Positions 39,221-47,474 of a DNA stretch of 64,000 nucleotides are shown here, in pieces; position 1 is the stretch's first letter; every line of letters starts with the position of its first letter. This DNA is from Rhizobacter sp. OV335. GTDB lineage: Bacteria > Pseudomonadota > Gammaproteobacteria > Burkholderiales > Burkholderiaceae_C. The notes below the pieces were generated by a model, which was not told where the DNA came from, made no database searches, and saw only the letters and a list, made by a program, of their open reading frames with translations. The stretch spans positions 62,001 to 126,000 of the forward strand of contig NZ_FRCQ01000002.1 in NCBI RefSeq assembly GCF_900142965.1. The letters are read 5' to 3'. The position numbers were made by a program, and so were the translations under genes.

Positions 39221-40012
39221 ATGTCGCTGATCGATGAAGCCCTGCGCGCCGGCCACGCACCCGCGCCGCGCACGAACACCGCGTTGCAACGCGTGCTGGT
39301 GGCCGGCGGCGCCGGCCCGCTCGGCTCGGCCTTGCTCGAAAGCCTGCTGTCGGTGCGCGCGTTCGCGCCGGTCAGCGTGCTCGTCACGCAGCCGACGCGC
39401 GCCGCGCTGCACGGCCTGCACGCGCTGCTGTGGCCCGAGGGCACGGCGCTGCCGCCGGGCGACGAGCAGGTCGGCGTCATCGTGTTCGACCGCGAACGCC
39501 ATGCCAACGGTCGCGAGCTGGCGTTCTACCGGCCCGAGCCGGCCGCGCTGCGGGCCGTCGCGGCGCAATGGCAGGCGCGCGGCGTGCGTCACTTGCTGGT
39601 GGTGATGCCGCACACGATGGCGAGCCTGCCCGATGCGCTGAAGCGCGGGCTGGCCAACCTCGACGAGCACGCGGTCGCGGCGCTCGGCTTCGAGCACCTG
39701 GTGTTCATGCGCACCGCGCAGGCCGGCGTGCACGAGCGCATCAGCCACCCGGCGCAGCGGCTGGCGCACTGGATGCTGTCGCAGCTGCAGATGATGGTGC
39801 CGCAGCGCGACCGGCCGGTGCGGGCGCAGAAGGTCGCGCAGTTCGCCGCGCAGCTCGCGGCCGGCCTGGCGTCGAGCCCGCCCGGCACGCGCGTCGTGCC
39901 GCCGGAAACGGTGTGGGAGGCCGCGCAGACCGACGACATCGCCGGCCTCGCGCGTGCCTGGCTCAACGGGCCAGCGCCAGCGCCAACGCCTGTTGAATCG
40001 GCGCGGCCGTAG
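39221..40012 (+). CDS. Rossmann-fold (NAD(P)-binding-like) protein of unknown function
   Basis: A 263-residue protein with an N-terminal dinucleotide-fold motif VLVAGGAGPLGSALLESLL at about residues 25-43, the GxxGxxG pattern of SDR/NmrA-like proteins, but without a recognisable YxxxK catalytic pair. HLLVVMPHTMASLPDALKRGL and the HERISHPAQRLAHWMLSQLQMM stretch suggest a family seen in Burkholderiales. ATG 39221 gives the natural MSLIDEALRAG start; ATGs at 39173 and 39176 with GGAAGG upstream are alternatives. Divergent from the DUF3617 gene. Its 3' end overlaps the transglycosylase gene on the minus strand by 50 bases. Confidence 0.7.
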   Translation: MSLIDEALRAGHAPAPRTNTALQRVLVAGGAGPLGSALLESLLSVRAFAPVSVLVTQPTRAALHGLHALLWPEGTALPPGDEQVGVIVFDRERHANGRELAFYRPEPAALRAVAAQWQARGVRHLLVVMPHTMASLPDALKRGLANLDEHAVAALGFEHLVFMRTAQAGVHERISHPAQRLAHWMLSQLQMMVPQRDRPVRAQKVAQFAAQLAAGLASSPPGTRVVPPETVWEAAQTDDIAGLARAWLNGPAPAPTPVESARP

Positions 40013-41261
40013 CGTCCGACGGCGGCTCGGCGTGGCGCGCCGGCGGCTTCGGCGTGCGCGGCACCGGCCGCATCTGCGACAGCACCCAGCGCACGCGCGC
40101 CGCATTGACCTCGCCATGCGCATCGAAGCGCGCCAGCTCCAGGTCGGGGTTGTGCAGCAGGCTGGCCAGCCACGCGGCCTCGGCCGGCGTCAGCCGGTCG
40201 ACGCGCTTGTGCAGCAGCTGCGCCGCCGCCGCATGCGCACCGCAGCGGCCCTGGCCCCACGGCACCAGCGACAGGTAGAGGTGCATCACGCGCGCCTTGC
40301 CGAGCGTGCGGTCCAGCTCGACGGCATACAGCAGCTCGCGCAGCTTGCGGGCGTGGCCGCGCGCGCCGCCGGTGTAGACCAGCCGCGCGAGCTGCTGCGA
40401 CAAGGTGCTCGCGCCGCGCTGCGGTTCGAACGACAGCGCGTTGCCGATCTCGTCGAGGTCGTAGCCCGGGTGCTCGTGGAAGCGCTGGTCTTCGGCGGCG
40501 ATCACCGCGCGCGGCAGCCAGGTGCCGAAGCCGCCGGCCGGCACCGCGCCGTCGGCGCCACAGTTCGGCGCCGCATTCAGCAGCGCCTCGGTGCCCAGCC
40601 CGGCGACGCGAAAGCCGTCGAGCCGCGGGTGGAACTCCAACGTGCGCTCGGGCAGGCGCAGCCGCAGGTCGAAGCGCATCAGCCCGTCGACCTGCGCGCG
40701 CGGCAGCTCGGGGATCGTCGACGCGAACAGCGCGAACGCATCGGCGATCGGTGTCACGTCGCCCTGCGCGCTCAGCTCGAGCTGCTGCGGCGTCAGCACC
40801 GCGCGCCATCGGCCGCGCACCGCATGGTCCGCCTCGCCGAGCGCGAAGTCGCCCTGCAGGTTCATGTCGGCATCGCGCGCCAGCGTGACCACCAGGCGCG
40901 TCAGCCGCACCGCATCGCCGGGCAGGCCGATGCCGCGCAGCGCGCACGGCGCGCAGGTGGCTCGCCAGGCATCGGGACCGTCCGGTGCGATCGCGACGCG
41001 ACCGAAGGGCGTGCGCACCGTGCGGCCCTCCAGCACGCGCAGCGTCACCGGGTGCGTCGCGAGCCGGATCACCGCCGGCATGCTGATCGCGCGCTGCCAC
41101 GGGCCGATGTGCAGCGTCTGCGCCCACTCGCCGTCGACCGGCCGCAGCAGGCGCAGCATCGCCCACGCGCCGACCAGCAGCGCGAGCAGCAACGCCACCA
41201 GCACGCCAGCGATCCACAACGCCCATCTTGTCCGCCAATTCGTCACGCGCCAAAGTTTCAC
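39963..41261 (-). CDS. GT51 peptidoglycan glycosyltransferase-like protein of the exosortase operon
   Basis: A 432-residue membrane protein. A transmembrane helix (about residues 14-36) is followed by a 210-residue periplasmic region I do not recognise (possibly AsmA-like beta sheet), then a GT51 domain: EDQRFHEHPG (catalytic Glu257), GASTLSQQ (283-290), RKLRE (305-309) and TPAEAAWLASLLHNP. Motif IV (KxxILExYLN) is degenerate, HLYLSLVPWG. There is no transpeptidase domain. The start is a GTG whose bases overlap the stop of the EpsI-like gene (GTGA), so translation is coupled to the exosortase locus. Lipid II polymerisation is the family reaction; activity here is plausible but unproven. Confidence 0.8.
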   Translation of the reverse strand: MKLWRVTNWRTRWALWIAGVLVALLLALLVGAWAMLRLLRPVDGEWAQTLHIGPWQRAISMPAVIRLATHPVTLRVLEGRTVRTPFGRVAIAPDGPDAWRATCAPCALRGIGLPGDAVRLTRLVVTLARDADMNLQGDFALGEADHAVRGRWRAVLTPQQLELSAQGDVTPIADAFALFASTIPELPRAQVDGLMRFDLRLRLPERTLEFHPRLDGFRVAGLGTEALLNAAPNCGADGAVPAGGFGTWLPRAVIAAEDQRFHEHPGYDLDEIGNALSFEPQRGASTLSQQLARLVYTGGARGHARKLRELLYAVELDRTLGKARVMHLYLSLVPWGQGRCGAHAAAAQLLHKRVDRLTPAEAAWLASLLHNPDLELARFDAHGEVNAARVRWVLSQMRPVPRTPKPPARHAEPPSDATAAPIQQALALALAR

Positions 41262-41803
41262 AATGCCCTCGCTGTCGTGATCGCCTGCCACGGGCCGGTG
41301 CTCTGCCCGAGTTGCGCGGCCCAGAACCAGCTGGAGGCGTCGGTGAAGGCCGCGCCATCGGCCCCGACGATCCGCTCGCACACGCGGGTGCGCTGGCCGT
41401 TGCGCTCGGCGACGAAGCAGCGCCACAGCCGCTGCGCGTCATCGCGCTCCAGCCGGGCCTGCTCGATGCGGTAGCCGAGCCCGCGGTAGCAATCGGCGGC
41501 CGGGTGCAGCATGCGGGTCGGCGTGCGCACCTCGCGCATCACCAGCACCTGCGCACCGTCGGTGAGCCGGGCGATGCGGCCCGGGAACTGCGCGGCGAAA
41601 CGCTGCTCGACGGCGCTCAGTGCGAGCGGACGCAGCGCGCGGCCTTCCCACTCGATCGGCCACTCGGACGCAGCGTCCGCCGCCGTGGTACCCGTGCGGT
41701 CACGCGGCATGCCGAGCATCGGCAGCAGCGCACAGGCCAGCAGCAGCGCCGCGAAGCCCAGCTTGTGCCGCAGGCCATCGCGGTCATTGCGGCGCAGCAT
41801 CAT
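41258..41803 (-). CDS. EpsI-like exosortase-associated protein
   Basis: A 181-residue protein with an N-terminal membrane anchor (about 13-32) and a periplasmic domain. RMLHPAADCYRGLGYRIEQARL resembles the HRPExCYxxxGW core of EpsI (exosortase-associated) proteins in which a Cys and an aromatic residue are conserved; WRCFVAERNGQRTRVCERI gives two further cysteines. It overlaps the end of the exosortase gene by 20 bases. EpsI proteins assist exosortase or polysaccharide export through an unknown mechanism. Two consecutive ATG codons (41803, 41800) leave the exact start open. Confidence 0.7.
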   Translation of the reverse strand: MMLRRNDRDGLRHKLGFAALLLACALLPMLGMPRDRTGTTAADAASEWPIEWEGRALRPLALSAVEQRFAAQFPGRIARLTDGAQVLVMREVRTPTRMLHPAADCYRGLGYRIEQARLERDDAQRLWRCFVAERNGQRTRVCERIVGADGAAFTDASSWFWAAQLGQSTGPWQAITTARAL

Positions 41804-42623
41804 CCGCCTCCCGCATCAGCATCGCCACCGCGGCGCAGACCATCGCCAGCACCGCGAGCCCGATGCCCTGGTGCCAGGCCTCGGCCAGCGGCCCGCGCGA
41901 CTCCAGCGCCACCAGCACGGTGTTGCGCAGCACGTTGCCGCTCAGCACCAGCGCGCCGACCGCGGGCAGCCGCCGCAGGAAGCTGCGTTCGCGCAGCCCG
42001 CCCAGCAAGGCCATCGTGCAGGCGCAGAAGTACGCCATCCACACCATCTGCACGCCGGAGCACGGCGCGTCGACGATCACCAACTGCCCGTCCACCACCA
42101 TCGCGGTGCCGCTGCGTTCGGCCGCCCGGCCGGCGAGTTGCAGCAGCCAGGTGCTGCACTGCGCCGTCACCAGCCGCAGCGGGAAGCCGGCGTAGAACTG
42201 CAGCGACGAAATGACCGGCAGCGACAGCACGGCCAGCCCCGCGAGCGGCAGCGTGGCCTGGCCCGACGGCGCGATGGCGCGCCAGCCGCAGGCCAGCGCC
42301 AGCGCGGCCAGCAGTGCGCCGGCCAGCGGTGGCGCGAGTGCCTGCGACACGGTGGCCAGCAGCGTCAGCGCGCCAGCCGCCACCCACCAGCCCGGCCGCG
42401 CGCTGCCGCGCAAGCCCTGCGCGTGCCACGCGGCCCAGCCGAGCAGCACCGCCACCGCGGCCAGCCCGAGCGGATCGTCCGAGCCATCGACCAGCCGACC
42501 CGCGGCCCAGCGCCAGTGCGGCCACAGCGCCACCACCTGCAGCCCGAGCCAGGCGAGGGGCGGCATCGCTTCGAAGCGCCCCAGCCAGCGGCCGGTGGCG
42601 GAGGTGGACAACACGGTTCCCAT
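41784..42623 (-). CDS. Exosortase (PEP-CTERM transpeptidase-like membrane protease)
   Basis: A 279-residue polytopic membrane protein with about eight helices. The exosortase catalytic residues are in place: Cys188 in DAPCSGVQMVW, Arg233 in GNVLRNTVL and His251 in AWHQGIGL. Exosortases recognise C-terminal PEP-TM-Arg tails and cleave or transfer the protein at the membrane. The directly upstream gene (9-base gap) encodes a protein with precisely such a tail, and no exopolysaccharide genes flank it, unlike the XrtA/EpsH type. I cannot assign a numbered exosortase subtype from memory. Confidence 0.9.
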   Translation of the reverse strand: MGTVLSTSATGRWLGRFEAMPPLAWLGLQVVALWPHWRWAAGRLVDGSDDPLGLAAVAVLLGWAAWHAQGLRGSARPGWWVAAGALTLLATVSQALAPPLAGALLAALALACGWRAIAPSGQATLPLAGLAVLSLPVISSLQFYAGFPLRLVTAQCSTWLLQLAGRAAERSGTAMVVDGQLVIVDAPCSGVQMVWMAYFCACTMALLGGLRERSFLRRLPAVGALVLSGNVLRNTVLVALESRGPLAEAWHQGIGLAVLAMVCAAVAMLMREADDAAPQ

Positions 42624-42632
42624 GGCGCGGCC

Positions 42633-44711
42633 TCATGCCTTCGCTGCCACGCGGCGGCGCTGCAGCGCGACGCCGGCCACGCCGAACACCACCAGCAGCG
42701 CCAGCCAGGCCGCCGGCTCCGGCGTGCTCGGCACCTCGGCGCCGAGCGCGGTCTCGGCCACGCCTTGCGGCAAAGGCAGCGGCTGGTCGACGGTCGGCGC
42801 GAGCGCGGGGTTCGGGTTGCGCACCACCTCGTCGATCGCGATGAAGCTGGTGTACTGCGTCAGCAGGCTGTACTTCAGGCCGAGCGCGGTGATGGCCTCC
42901 TTCTCGGCATTGCCGCCGACCAGCGATTCCTGGTCGCTGAGCGCCGCGATGCGCTGGCGGGCCCACAGGTGGCGCAACGCGGACGAGGTCTGGTCCTCGT
43001 GGCCGGCCACCATCAGCTCTTCGTGCCACGGGCCGTCGGCCGCGCGGCCGTCGAGCACCAGCCTGCCGGCGGCCGGCACGCCGGGGCGCGAGCGCCACTT
43101 GCCCTGCAGCAGCACCGGGCGGCCGCCCAGCACGTCGGGCAGCGCGGCCGGCTCTACGTCGTAGACGTCCAGCCCGTCGAAGCGCGCCTTCAGCTGCGTC
43201 AGCACCGGCGAATCGATCATGCGGCGCAGGCGCTCGGCCTGCGCGGCGGCCTCGGCCGGCTTCGTGACGACGAAGGCCTCGCCCTGGCCGGCACGCGCCA
43301 GGCCTTCGATCAGCGCGCGGTTGACGCTGCTGCCGATGCCGAACGCGAACACGTTGAACTCGTTCAGGTGGCGGCGCACCAGCTGGAACACCTCGGACTC
43401 GACCGTCACGTAGCCGTCGGTCACGACGATCACGCTGCGCGACAGGTCCGCGGGCTTCGGCAGCTCGGCGATGCGGCGCAGCGCCGGCACGATCTCGGTA
43501 CCGCCACCGCCGCTGGTGTTCGCCAGCGTCTGCAATGCGCGCTCGATGTTGGCGCGGGTGGCCGGCACCGAGGTGGGCGACAGCATGCGGCTGCTGCCGG
43601 AGAACAGCATCACGTTGAAGGTGTCGCTCGGGCGCAGGCCGCCGATCAGGTTCTGCATCAGCACCTTCGCGGTGTCCAGCGGGTAGCCGTGCATCGAGCC
43701 CGAGATGTCGACCACGAAGATGTAGTCGCGCGGGCTGACCTGCTGCAGCGGCACGGCCTTCGGCGGCTCGACCATCGCGAGGAAGAAGTTCTCGCCGCCG
43801 GTCTGGTCGTCGCCGCGGTACAGCATCAGGCCGGACGCGATGCGGTCGCCGGCGAGGCGGTAGGTCAGGATGAAGTCACGGTTGTTGGAAGCCTTCGCAT
43901 CGGCAAGGCTCACGCTCGCATGCGCGGTGTCAGCGCCCTGCACGCGGATCTCGTGCGACGACGAGGCGACGTCCTTCACGGCGATCGGCGCGTCGACGCG
44001 CAGCTTCAGGTCGAACGCGGTGTTCGACTCGGCGCCGGCACGCAGGTAGGGCGTCGCGGCCCAGGTCGGCCGGCCGGCCGCATCGGCCGCGGACGGGCTG
44101 CCGTAGCGCGGCCCGACGACGGTCGGGAACACGAAACCGTACTGCGCGTCGGTCGGCACCAGCAACTCGGTGTAGCGCAGCTCCACCGCGACGTCGTCGC
44201 CCGGCAGGATGTTGGCGACGTTCATCTCGAACACATTGGGTCGGTGCTGTTCCAGCAGCGCGCTGGTCTTGCCCTCGCGCTTGGCGTTGTCGTACTCGAT
44301 GCGCGCCTGCTGCTTCTCGCGGATGCGCGCGGTCAGCAGCCGGTTGCCGAGGCGAACGTTCATCGCGTAGATGGCGGCCTGCGTCGAGCCGGGGAAGACG
44401 TAGCGGGCCTCGATCGGCCGCTGGCCTTCGTTGCGGTAGTGCTGCGTGACGGTCACGTCGGCGATCACGCCGCTGATGCGCACGTCGACCGCGGTCGACT
44501 TCAGCGGCAGCCGGTCGGTGCTCGCGTCACCGTTGTCGATGAAGAAGTACGGGCTCTCGCCCTTGCGGGCCTCGGAGTCGTCGGCGCGGGCCGGCGACCA
44601 CGCGAGCGTGAGGATCGCGGCGAACAGCGACAGCGCGATGCACAGCATCACGCGGCCGACGTGGGTGAGCGGGCGGATCGGGTGGAACGGAACGCGGCGC
44701 AGCGGGGGCAT
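42633..44711 (-). CDS. VIT and VWA domain surface protein with PEP-CTERM sorting tail
   Basis: A 692-residue predicted exported protein. A signal peptide (about 1-42) precedes a VIT domain (about 65-190, VTQHYRNEGQRPIEARYVFPG), a VWA domain (about 328-500) with an intact MIDAS start DISGS (335-339) and VVTDGYV, a helical region with KEAITALGLKYSLLTQYTSFIAID typical of inter-alpha-trypsin-inhibitor-like proteins, then a Pro-rich linker and the PEP-CTERM tail: PEP at 664-666, helix at 669-683 and RRR at 685-687. AGGAG precedes ATG 44711. It is the evident substrate of the adjacent exosortase. Metal-dependent adhesion or matrix binding is likely. Confidence 0.92.
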   Translation of the reverse strand: MPPLRRVPFHPIRPLTHVGRVMLCIALSLFAAILTLAWSPARADDSEARKGESPYFFIDNGDASTDRLPLKSTAVDVRISGVIADVTVTQHYRNEGQRPIEARYVFPGSTQAAIYAMNVRLGNRLLTARIREKQQARIEYDNAKREGKTSALLEQHRPNVFEMNVANILPGDDVAVELRYTELLVPTDAQYGFVFPTVVGPRYGSPSAADAAGRPTWAATPYLRAGAESNTAFDLKLRVDAPIAVKDVASSSHEIRVQGADTAHASVSLADAKASNNRDFILTYRLAGDRIASGLMLYRGDDQTGGENFFLAMVEPPKAVPLQQVSPRDYIFVVDISGSMHGYPLDTAKVLMQNLIGGLRPSDTFNVMLFSGSSRMLSPTSVPATRANIERALQTLANTSGGGGTEIVPALRRIAELPKPADLSRSVIVVTDGYVTVESEVFQLVRRHLNEFNVFAFGIGSSVNRALIEGLARAGQGEAFVVTKPAEAAAQAERLRRMIDSPVLTQLKARFDGLDVYDVEPAALPDVLGGRPVLLQGKWRSRPGVPAAGRLVLDGRAADGPWHEELMVAGHEDQTSSALRHLWARQRIAALSDQESLVGGNAEKEAITALGLKYSLLTQYTSFIAIDEVVRNPNPALAPTVDQPLPLPQGVAETALGAEVPSTPEPAAWLALLVVFGVAGVALQRRRVAAKA

Positions 44712-44883
44712 GGTTTTCTCCTGGGCACGCCGCTCGGTGGGCGCGTGGTCGCAAGGATCGGCCGCGCCTGCGAAGCGGGTTCGAAGGCTGATGCGTCGCT
44801 GTGTGAAGTGCGTGTGAACCCTCAAGAGCTGGCATCGGCGCGAGCAAAAGCGCGAGCGGGGTACTTCGATGATGAGCCAGTCT

Positions 44884-45012
44884 CCCGTTCGGACTGAGCT
44901 TGTCGAAGGCCATGCGCGCTGCGGACGCAACCCTTCGACAGGCTCAGGGCGAACGGGGGTTCTTTGCCACTGCCGGGTCCCTTCGAGGACCTTTTGGGCT
45001 CAGGGCGAACGG
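44884..45012. repeat. REP-like inverted repeats (TTCGACAGGCTCAGG-type)
   Basis: Arms 44884-44909 and 44932-44957 are inverted copies of a 26-base unit with three mismatches; a broken third copy follows at 44979-45012 (CCCTTCGA ... GGGCTCAGGGCGAACGG). The core CCTTCGACAGGCTCAG...CGAACGG is a word I recognise as widespread in proteobacterial intergenic regions. Probably a REP/BIME-like cluster; spread by a RAYT transposase is possible but no such gene is in the window. Confidence 0.75.
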
Positions 45013-45042
45013 CGGTTTTGCACGCACAGAACCGATGTGTCG

Positions 45043-45291
45043 CAAAGGCGCGTGCGGGGAGGCTGTGGAGCGCCAATAGGGACGGGGCGCCGGAGCTGGC
45101 TGGTTTCATGGCCCCGCGCGTAGCGCGTTCGTGAACTGACTGTCGCCGACTGTCTGACCACAACGAACGAAGTGAGTGACGGGAGTTTCGGCGACGGGCC
45201 ATGAAACCAGTCAGCGGAGGGAAGTCTTCGCCCCCTACGGGGCGAAGACCGCACCGGCCGGCGAGCCACAGCCTCCCCGCGCGCGCCTTTG
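45043..45291. repeat. 249-base nested inverted-repeat element
   Basis: Outer arms 45043-45068 and 45266-45291 match at 25 of 26 positions as inverted copies. Inside lie further arm pairs: CTGGCTGGTTTCATGGCCC (45096-45114) with its near inverse at 45196-45214, GTCGCCGA (45142-45149) with TCGGCGAC (45188-45195), and a stand-alone perfect hairpin CTTCGCCCC/GGGGCGAAG at 45226-45247. It carries no ORF of note. The layout suits a MITE-like mobile element or a long structured RNA; no target-site duplication was confirmed. Confidence 0.75.
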
Positions 45292-45307
45292 ACGCGCCAA
45301 TACGCGA

Positions 45308-46738
45308 CTATGGGTTCAACGGAAGCGACAGCGTCGCGACCGCGCCGCCCGCCGCGGCGTTCTTCAGCGTGATGCGCCCCTCGTGCAGCTCCGCGATCTC
45401 GCTGACGAACGAGAGCCCGAGGCCGGTGCTCTTCTTGCGCGAATGCGGCCGCGCCAGCGAATAGAACTTCTCGAACACCTTCGATTCGGCGTAGTCGGGA
45501 ATGCCAGGCCCGCTGTCCTGCACGCGCAGGTCGACGGTGCGGCGGTGCAGCTGCAGCGACAGCCGCACCGTACCGCCTTCCGGCGAGAAATCGAGCGCGT
45601 TGTCGAGCAGGTTCGACAGCGCACGCTGCAGCAGGAACGCGTCACCCTCGACGCTCGCGTCAGGCCCGTCTTCCACGACGATCTTCAGCTTGCGCGTCGC
45701 CGCAGCCGCCTGCGCGCTCGCGGCCGCCTCGATCACCAGCGGCCTCAGCGCGACCGGCGCGCGACGCTCCAGGCTGCGCCGCGACTCCAGCGCCGTCAGT
45801 TCCATCATCCGGTCGACCAGCTCCTGGATGCGGTGCGTCTCGCGTGCGATGTTGGCGACGAAGCGCGCCCGGTCGGCATCGGGCATCGGCTCCTGCAGCA
45901 GCTCGGCCGCGCCGCGGATCGCCGACAGCGGGCTCTTCACCTCGTGCGTCAGCGTCTGCACGTAGTCGGCCACGTAGTTGCGCCCGGCCAGCGCATCGCG
46001 CATCTCGTCGTAGGCCGCGCCGATCGCGCCGAGCGCGCGCCGGCCGAGCCGCGGCAGGCTGAAGCTGCGCTGCGCGCGCACATAGCGCACGTAGTCGGCG
46101 ATCAACCCGAACGGCCGCACCAGCCACACCGAGACGATCACCACCAGCAGCAGCACCGCGACCACCGAGGTCACGCCGACCAGCAGCGTCTTGCGCCGCG
46201 CCGCATCGACGAACTGCCCGAAGCTCTGCACCGGCTTGCCGACGCTGACCGCGCCGATGATCTCGTTGCGCGCGCGCACCGGCGCGGCGACGTACATCAC
46301 CGCGGTGCGGTTGTCGTTGTCGATGTCGGGCGTGGTACGCGCGCCGTACTCGCCCTGCAGCGCGCGCCAGACGTCGTGCCACTGCGCGTAGTCCTCGCCG
46401 AGGTGGCGCTGCGTCGAGTCGTAGACCACCTTGCCGACGCGGTCGGTGACGATCAGCCGCAGCTCGACGCGCGTCTTCTCGAAGCCGAAGATGTCGGCCT
46501 TGAAGCGGCGCGCATACAGCGACTCGAACACCGGCGCCAGCGTCTCGGCGCGCAGCGTGCCGTCGCCCGACGAGGCCTCCAGCGTCGCGGCGATCAGGTG
46601 CGCCGTTTCCACCAGCGACTCCTCGGCCGACTCGCGGTAGCGCGGGTCGATGTCGCCGAGCAGCCGGTACATCAGCACGCCGACGCCGAACGCGTAGGCG
46701 AGCAGGATGCCGACGAAGATCCGGGTTCGCTTCGAGAT
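45308..46738 (-). CDS. creC: CreC-like sensor histidine kinase (probable non-canonical start)
   Basis: Inner-membrane sensor of the CreBC system. Landmarks: IDPRYRESAEESLVETAHL, ADIFGFEKTRVELRLIVTDRVGKVVYDS, GQDYS-like GEDYAQWHDVWRALQGEYGART, SVMYVAAPV-like TAVMYVAAPV, second helix, HAMP-like segment, His265 in THEVKSPLSAIRGAAELL, and HATPase boxes NLLDNALDFS, DSGPGIP and STGLGLSFV. The first canonical start in frame is GTG 46678, which would cut the first membrane helix. Upstream, SKRTRIFVGILLAYAFGVGV is open and begins after an ATC codon at 46738 with GGAG before it; using it gives 476 residues, close to 474 in Escherichia coli. I extend to 46738 on that basis. Confidence 0.75.
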   Translation of the reverse strand: MSKRTRIFVGILLAYAFGVGVLMYRLLGDIDPRYRESAEESLVETAHLIAATLEASSGDGTLRAETLAPVFESLYARRFKADIFGFEKTRVELRLIVTDRVGKVVYDSTQRHLGEDYAQWHDVWRALQGEYGARTTPDIDNDNRTAVMYVAAPVRARNEIIGAVSVGKPVQSFGQFVDAARRKTLLVGVTSVVAVLLLVVIVSVWLVRPFGLIADYVRYVRAQRSFSLPRLGRRALGAIGAAYDEMRDALAGRNYVADYVQTLTHEVKSPLSAIRGAAELLQEPMPDADRARFVANIARETHRIQELVDRMMELTALESRRSLERRAPVALRPLVIEAAASAQAAAATRKLKIVVEDGPDASVEGDAFLLQRALSNLLDNALDFSPEGGTVRLSLQLHRRTVDLRVQDSGPGIPDYAESKVFEKFYSLARPHSRKKSTGLGLSFVSEIAELHEGRITLKNAAAGGAVATLSLPLNP

Positions 46739-46739
46739 G

Positions 46740-47474
46740 TCAGCTCTCCGGCTTGGTGGCCGGCAGGTCTTCCGCCAGCGCGTAGCCGGTGCCGCGGTGC
46801 GTCTTGATCGGCTCCAGCGTCGGCGCCACGAGTTTCATCTTCGCGCGCAGCGTCTTCACGTGCGCGTCGACCGTGCGGTCGAGGCTTTCGGTGGCGTCGT
46901 CCCACACGCGCTCGAGCAGCGTGTCGCGCGAGAACACGTGGCCCGGGCGCGAGACCAGCGTCTTCAGCAGCCCGTATTCGTAGCGCGACAGCTCCAGCAG
47001 CTGGCCGTAGAAGCGGATCTGCCGCCGGCCGTCGTCGACCGCGATCGGCAGCGCCGGCTCGGCCGCAGCGACCGCGGCCACCGGTGCCGCGGCCGGCTTG
47101 GTCGCACGGCGCAGCACCGTGCGCACGCGCGCCACCAGCTCGCGCGGCGAGAACGGCTTGGCGACGTAGTCGTCCGCGCCCAGCTCCAGCCCGACCACGC
47201 GGTCGATCTCGTCGCTGCGCGCGGTCAGGAACACCACCGGGATGTCGGCCAGCGCACGGATGCGCTTGAACACCTCGAAGCCGTTGGTGTCGGGCAGGCC
47301 GACATCGAGGATCACCAGCGCTGGCCTCTCTTCCGGCAAGCTCGCCTGCACCAGCGCGACGGCCTCCTCGCCCGTGGCCACCCACGCCGGCTCGAAGCCG
47401 TCGGTGCGCAGCGCGTACTGCAGCGTGTCGGCGATGCCGGGTTCGTCCTCGACGATCAGGATGCGCGGCTTCAT
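46740..47474 (-). CDS. creB: CreB-like OmpR-family response regulator
   Basis: A 244-residue regulator with a receiver domain (VEDEPGI acidic pocket, phospho-acceptor Asp57 in [33 protein letters not shown]) and a C-terminal winged helix of the OmpR type ([33 protein letters not shown] region, then [12 protein letters not shown]). An Ala/Pro-rich linker of about 25 residues separates them. ATG 47474 overlaps the cysK stop (ATGA). CreBC in enterobacteria responds to carbon/energy state and cell-wall stress; the regulon here is unknown. Confidence 0.9.

Follow-up and report, generated by a model that had tools for sequence, protein, structure and literature searches.

Within a 64,000 nucleotide stretch of the soil bacterium Rhizobacter sp. 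OV335 (GCF_900142965.1, contig NZ_FRCQ01000002.1, positions 62,001 to 126,000; hereafter the window) lie four tightly packed minus-strand genes that appear to form a protein-sorting cassette, encoding a PEP-CTERM-tailed VIT-VWA protein, an exosortase, a small partner protein, and a GT51 glycosyltransferase. The first two genes are separated by a 9-base gap, the exosortase and partner genes overlap by 20 bases, and the partner and GT51 genes by 4 bases. An earlier note, made from the sequence alone, had described this arrangement and its coordinates correctly; it missed the CreBC pair and the cre/blr-tag upstream. In the order of transcription on the minus strand the locus contains creB, creC, a spacer with the cre/blr-tag, the VIT-VWA gene, xrtQ, the small partner gene and the GT51 gene, as follows (window coordinates).

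46740..47474, minus strand: creB, response regulator (NCBIfam CreB equivalog NF008296, 315.7 bits, over the cut-off of 273)
45308..46678, minus strand: creC, sensor histidine kinase (NCBIfam CreC equivalog NF008312, 579.8 bits, over the cut-off of 356)
44803..44818, minus strand: cre/blr-tag TTCACACGCACTTCAC, presumed CreB site (exact match to TTCACN6TTCAC)
42633..44711, minus strand: VIT-VWA PEP-CTERM protein, 692 residues, presumed sole XrtQ cargo (PF08487, PF00092, PF13768)
42636..42743, minus strand: predicted XrtQ-type sorting signal GAEVPSTPEP, hydrophobic stretch, RRR tail (alignment of 36 tails; genome scans)
41784..42623, minus strand: exosortase XrtQ, 279 residues, with C188, R233 and H251 (NF012182)
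41258..41803, minus strand: small partner, 181 residues, one N-terminal helix (XrtT profile)
39963..41261, minus strand: monofunctional GT51 glycosyltransferase, 432 residues, one N-terminal helix (PF00912)

The exosortase belongs to an already named NCBIfam family, XrtQ (NF012182, 374 bits, cut-off 270; PF09721, 93 bits), and no difference between the window enzyme and that family was found. C188, R233 and H251 are invariant across 38 aligned exosortases, the window's included, in agreement with the earlier note's statement that the triad is intact. Membership in XrtA was tried and rejected (TIGR03109, 20.9 bits against a cut-off of 208). The XrtA/EpsH and XrtB systems share the exosortase superfamily and the conserved Cys, Arg and His, but in the available portion of their published description (PMC1569441) they serve many cargos and sit in an exopolysaccharide locus, and proteobacterial cargo operons are mostly single-gene with a sigma-54 site. 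One strict pattern found no sigma-54 site before the VIT-VWA gene of the window.

The VIT-VWA protein begins with a signal peptide recognizable by eye, contains VIT and VWA domains (PF08487, 117 bits; PF00092, 57 bits; PF13768, 80 bits, by profile scan), and ends in GAEVPSTPEPAAW, then a hydrophobic stretch, then RRR, an ending the earlier note had reported. The general Pfam PEP-CTERM model, with a gathering score of 20.7, gives this tail 16.6 in the protein scan (below) and 22.8 in the genome scan (above). The P and E of TPE are invariant in 36 aligned XrtQ-type tails, and as judged from that alignment the tail is an XrtQ-specific PEP-CTERM variant with the signature GAEVPSTPEP. The protein was rejected as a class GN sortase target (TIGR03788, 420 bits against a cut-off of 551.65), its tail being of the PEP-CTERM type and not LPXTG-like. 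In a VIT-VWA tree, built quickly and with long branches, the XrtQ cargos fall together, with the XrtT cargo beside them. Nested inside the XrtQ clade is a protein of genome G834 (L213, 4903-7389) that by eye carries neither PEP nor a membrane tail; that genome's other VIT-VWA protein (L206) ends with a FAQTAT stretch and a hydrophobic tail. The 26 remaining rows of the tree are all labeled sortase-type, with the sortase gene profile-confirmed only in L202 and L207. In one locus of the XrtQ type (L118, 2959-6279) the VIT-VWA gene is broken into two open pieces, and cre/blr-tags precede the first.

XrtQ exceeds its cut-off in 46 of 299 genomes sampled from the same family, 5 of 399 from the order and 5 of 398 from the phylum (overlapping samples, each including the Rhizobacter genome itself), and the named relatives carrying it are Rhizobacter, Albitalea, Caldimonas, Piscinibacter and unclassified Burkholderiales. 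Among 59 XrtQ-type loci, the VIT-VWA gene is upstream of and adjacent to xrtQ in all 57 that could be evaluated (the contigs of the other two begin inside xrtQ), the small partner is present in all 59, and GT51 follows in 55, making it common, not obligatory. The earlier note had suggested asking whether both a VIT-VWA and a GT51 gene always adjoin homologs of the exosortase; the answer is yes for the first and usually for the second. Both L103, which retains a cargo fragment only, and L118, with its cargo in pieces, were counted as adjacent. The 59 loci include two exosortases below the XrtQ cut-off (L117, 208 bits; L118, 193 bits) and a partial one (L128, 240.5 bits); L029-L038 were entered by protein similarity, not all being scored against the XrtQ model. 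Rows removed before a count of 65 were L039 (a copy of L104), L126 (the own-genome XrtB locus), L127 (contig edge) and L040 (no XrtQ frame, but kept in the 58-row tag and CreC counts below); removed before the count of 59 were the XrtN-like L119, L120 and L122-L124 and the XrtT locus L125. Among the matches listed in a search of open-access papers we found none on the XrtQ family, and that search gave none on an exosortase with a VIT domain; NCBI family notes may already describe the pairing.

The earlier note's remark that no other PEP-CTERM protein and no exopolysaccharide cluster is present was a count within the window, which we replaced with whole-genome searches for PEP-CTERM proteins and exosortases. 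The remark holds for the window and not for the genome, which has 13 PEP-CTERM places over cut-off (the cassette and 12 others) and two exosortases, XrtQ and an XrtB (401.7 bits, cut-off 275) located on another contig in an exopolysaccharide locus, where its neighbors are EpsI and EpsF, the chain length protein (578 bits, cut-off 423). Thus, of the two findings that the note had set against a dedicated system, the first, many PEP-CTERM proteins in the genome, was observed, but together with a separate XrtB, and the second, grouping of the exosortase with XrtA, was not. A resident general exosortase such as XrtB might then process the cassette's tail, with XrtQ doing something else or being redundant, and both the presence of XrtB in this genome and the recognition of the tail by the general Pfam model in the genome scan are compatible with this. 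We nevertheless consider it very unlikely, given that 25 of the 50 XrtQ genomes searched keep the cassette without any other exosortase match, that the VIT-VWA/XrtQ adjacency is strict, and that the conserved GAEVPST prefix is left uncovered by most other tail matches among those listed.

The XrtQ-only genomes are also informative on the number of cargos. Of the 25, 21 are at least 90% complete, and 18 of these 21 have no over-cut-off PEP-CTERM place beyond the cassette; the three exceptions are a convincing protein (G490), an 88-residue frame without PEP (G415) and a spurious-looking frame (G586). PEP-CTERM matches at E 0.05 or better have a median of 1 (0-2) in the 21 near-complete XrtQ-only genomes and 8 (2-36) in the 23 genomes whose second exosortase is full-size; two more genomes, whose second exosortase match is short, have 1 and 3. 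Weak sub-cut-off PEP-CTERM matches occur both inside and outside the cassette. In each of the 43 genomes searched, a profile of XrtQ-type tails puts the cassette ahead of every other match (44-74 bits, except 33 bits in G490), a ranking that is circular because many of the same tails built the profile, so that the gap to the next match is the informative part; the best non-cassette match among those listed scores 37 bits (G488). Most non-cassette matches listed begin near profile column 10, without the GAEVPST part, while a few (for example in G488 and G512) do align over it. The 50-genome set left out the partial XrtQ matches G424, G509 and G537, and the tail profile used 43 of the 50. The earlier idea of one enzyme and one substrate is partly supported, strengthened by the 57/57 adjacency and by the single strong XrtQ-type tail in each of the 43 genomes searched, and qualified by the 12 other places in the Rhizobacter genome; overall, the reading as a dedicated system is largely supported.

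The sequence TTCACN6TTCAC is known as the cre/blr-tag, the CreB signature of the Cre regulon (PMC3660660, in the portion available). Its one exact match in the window (0.03 expected) ends 91 bases before the VIT-VWA start codon, within a 596-base spacer between creC and that gene, much of which is occupied by three inverted repeats (25-32 bases, 88-91% complementary, 44884-45291). Among 58 loci with a VIT-VWA gene, 56 could be evaluated for the tag (L033 and L109 were dropped, their upstream region lying off the contig), and it is exact in 48 and has one mismatch in 6; L029 was counted exact although its open frame starts far upstream, and L118 was counted from the tags before its first cargo piece, there being four mismatches near the second. 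Only 2 other exact tags occur in ~1.44 million strand-bases of XrtQ-type loci, and none at fewer than two mismatches lies within 450 bases of 26 non-XrtQ VIT-VWA genes or the XrtT one (for one gene, 81 bases only). Alignment of 28 tag loci, hand-picked from different branches and including several Rhizobacter, gives a mean of 0.19 bits in the flanking columns and reveals additional conservation at spacer positions C6 and C10 and at an ACA after the tag, all outside the search pattern. The Rhizobacter genome has 8 exact tags in total, against 1 match to a reversed control pattern; by eye, the cassette tag is a clear promoter site and some others fall inside long frames. One of the 8 (L226, C52:51616-51631) lies shortly before the frame of an unrelated membrane-anchored protein, a possible second CreB target.

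The regulators themselves accompany the cassette. Of 58 loci, 32 have a same-strand CreC gene upstream, scoring over 400 bits in 29 of them and less in L087, L093 and L095. In all 22 tested XrtQ genomes without a local CreC it is found elsewhere in the genome, at 40-78% identity and often on the same contig (L033, L035, L037 and L109, also without a local CreC, were left out of this test), as against a near full-length match, at 37-43% identity, in 9 of 26 genomes of the family that are negative for XrtQ. No CreC was found in two sortase-type genomes searched. Descent alone could in principle account for these associations, the tag and the CreBC linkage being remnants of an ancestral site near creBC with no role in regulation. 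The loci are indeed related, mostly from one family (Sphaerotilaceae by tree labels), with creC upstream of 32 of the 58; yet the tag is retained where the fetched locus has no creC while its flanks are near random, and positions that the search pattern did not demand are conserved with it. We hold this explanation to be very improbable. No link of an exosortase to CreBC or its tag was found in a search of open-access papers, and none of a sortase among the matches listed, subscription papers and NCBI family notes lying outside that search. Near one XrtQ cassette (L079, 2602-4209) there is also a CreD gene (465 bits, cut-off 275), whose neighbor cluster occurs in 5 of 61 loci.

The small partner matches positions 291-446 of the XrtT profile (5e-12) and aligns by hhalign to the XrtT C-terminal domain (2.5e-9), to which, as judged from these comparisons, it is homologous. 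In the window it is a separate gene, whereas 9 of 59 XrtQ-type loci encode it and XrtQ as a single open frame. Its structural model, with an N-terminal helix at 5-31 and a mean predicted local distance difference test score (pLDDT) of 88.8, has no confident match in the PDB (best E 0.11), and profile scans gave no Pfam match in the window protein and none of note in 32 relatives. Membership in EpsI was rejected, there being no match to TIGR02914 at E 1, and alignment by hhalign to the XrtB-linked EpsI of the same genome, itself a clear EpsI (TIGR02914, 142 bits, cut-off 42.8; B-type EpsI, 267 bits, cut-off 220), covers only a short H/C motif of 26 columns at E 0.06, which is not significant. 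The description of the partner as EpsI-like in the earlier note thus survives indirectly, through XrtT homology, position and fusions, because EpsI itself aligns non-significantly over a short motif.

The last gene of the cassette encodes a GT51 glycosyltransferase, as stated in the earlier note, with a Transgly domain (PF00912, 121 bits) and both motif glutamates, E257 and E309, which are invariant in 42 aligned sequences and which we take to be catalytic. Its start, read by eye, is most likely the GTG at 41261 overlapping the partner stop codon. The structural model (mean pLDDT 88.9) resembles peptidoglycan glycosyltransferases (Foldseek match to 2oqo, 7.7e-9) and includes an additional beta-rich domain at approximately residues 46-235; no confident PDB match was found outside the GT51 core. 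These features invite a more ambitious interpretation, in which GT51 would make or extend a peptidoglycan-type acceptor, either lipid II or nascent glycan, and XrtQ would attach the VIT-VWA protein to it. The whole operon would then be a machine for anchoring protein to the cell wall, the Gram-negative counterpart of sortase acting with lipid II. GT51 is found in 55 of 59 cassettes, its motif glutamates are invariant, it carries an extra domain, and CreBC is tied to peptidoglycan damage in other species. Four XrtQ-type loci, however, lack GT51 while keeping the other three genes, and among the loci of other types that were examined (XrtT, XrtN-like and other VIT-VWA), none gave a GT51 match. 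On both of these grounds we favor co-induced wall repair over a GT51-made acceptor, and regard the anchoring machine as unlikely.

Taken together, the comparative sequence evidence leads us to read the locus as a dedicated single-cargo XrtQ sorting cassette, controlled by CreBC and responding to cell-wall stress, a reading to which we assign a probability of roughly 0.7. CreC would sense envelope or peptidoglycan stress and phosphorylate CreB, which would bind the cre/blr-tag and switch the operon on. The signal peptide would export the VIT-VWA protein, and its tail helix and RRR cluster would hold it in the inner membrane until XrtQ, aided by the small partner, cleaves near VPSTPEP via C188 and either hands it to an acceptor or frees it to move towards the surface. 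GT51, co-induced, would polymerize lipid II, most simply for wall repair. What the sequence itself establishes is the order of the genes, the identity and triad of XrtQ, the tail variant, the tag and its association with CreBC. The choice of signal follows from the behavior of CreBC in other species, where, in the portions of the sources available, it responds to loss of PBP4 and to a beta-lactam in Pseudomonas aeruginosa (PMC2654508) and to colicin M in Escherichia coli (PMC3599342); in P. aeruginosa, CreD alone is insufficient to explain CreBC-dependent resistance (PMC2654508).

This reading must be tempered by several observations that count against it. With XrtB and 12 other PEP-CTERM places in the Rhizobacter genome, cross-processing by XrtB is possible there. 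One XrtQ-only genome (G490) holds a convincing second PEP-CTERM protein, and the four XrtQ-only genomes that are less than 90% complete have 1, 8, 3 and 4 PEP-CTERM matches, for which an exosortase absent from the assembly may be the cause. The Pfam model scores many cassette tails sub-cut-off and might therefore overlook tails of this kind in other places. Two loci, L121 (two mismatches) and L103 (with its fragmentary cargo gene), lack the tag, and a scan of 39700-45400 found no sigma-70-like promoter; a terminator scan likewise found none. Distant CreC proteins (37-43% identity) exist without XrtQ, in the 9 XrtQ-negative genomes mentioned above (the 26 sampled were taken from the top of search lists, not at random, with the partial match in G421 counted as negative). 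The four loci without GT51 belong on this side as well.

Since dozens of cargos are possible for each general exosortase, the acceptor and the purpose of sorting have been hard to pin down. Genomes in which a single exosortase match is paired with what is probably a single cargo, both encoded in an operon that has a predicted on-switch, would make cleavage site, acceptor and phenotype directly testable. The proposed cassette would also be a new kind of CreBC output, beyond the tag-bearing targets named in the available portion of a review, which are beta-lactamases and the E. coli Cre-regulon (PMC3660660).

Known systems provide close parallels. The VIT-VWA family carries LPXTG, GlyGly-CTERM or PEP-CTERM tails, and the idea of dedicated systems is already in print (PMC3237569, in the portion available). 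In class GN systems (sortase TIGR03784, target TIGR03788, two-component pair TIGR03785/TIGR03787) the cargo is likewise of the VIT-VWA superfamily, with the sortase gene adjoining it in two profile-checked loci (L202, L207) and the two-component pair adjoining it in L196, the sole locus whose pair was scanned. There the regulator (389 bits) is over its cut-off and the kinase (569 bits) below its cut-off of 612, the next-best models are CreB and CreC, respectively, and the cargo scores 780 bits to TIGR03788. The parallel with dedicated sortases drawn in the earlier note is thereby upheld. These systems differ in having a sortase and an LPQTAT-type tail instead of an exosortase and PEP-CTERM (an LPQTAT-like tail falls within the final 60 residues of 18 of 26 non-XrtQ VIT-VWA frames from other Pseudomonadota), in having no cre/blr-tag within one mismatch at any of the 26 genes, and in having no GT51 or small-partner match in the non-XrtQ VIT-VWA loci examined.

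Closer still is the XrtT cassette of genome G932 (L125, 1236-7468), in which a PEP-tailed VIT-VWA gene lies near an exosortase to which a small domain of this kind is fused and adjoins a CreBC-like pair (best models CreB and CreC, both below cut-off). It differs in that the enzyme is XrtT by profile (687 bits) and fused, the best tag has three mismatches, and there is no GT51 match. It is tempting to see a VIT-domain protein, a dedicated sorter and a Cre-type pair as one envelope-stress module that has adopted at least three sorters (class GN sortase, XrtT, XrtQ, and perhaps an XrtN-like enzyme), whose XrtQ version would join its cargo to a peptidoglycan-type acceptor supplied by GT51 in a stress-induced Gram-negative wall anchoring; we offer this generalization as an unlikely one.

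The XrtN system (TIGR04476/TIGR04477), which ranges in Bacteroidetes, and the proteobacterial loci L119, L122, L123 and L124 also place a PEP-CTERM VIT protein beside an exosortase, but their cargos carry membrane helices at the N-terminus (by eye) and lack a Pfam VWA match, and the exosortases of the proteobacterial loci score only 80-129 bits to the XrtQ model, below cut-off. Four of the five sub-cut-off XrtQ-like loci were checked, and all four have XrtN-type VIT cargos (101-167 bits, cut-off 250); one of them, L124, has a CreC-like kinase nearby. These proteobacterial loci look to be an intermediate branch, as yet without a name, between XrtQ and XrtN. In L120 an exosortase and partner alone were seen; the pairs of exosortase and cargo, the latter of ~800 residues, lie at L119 5963-9735, L122 6424-10310, L123 4100-7799 and L124 6053-9668.

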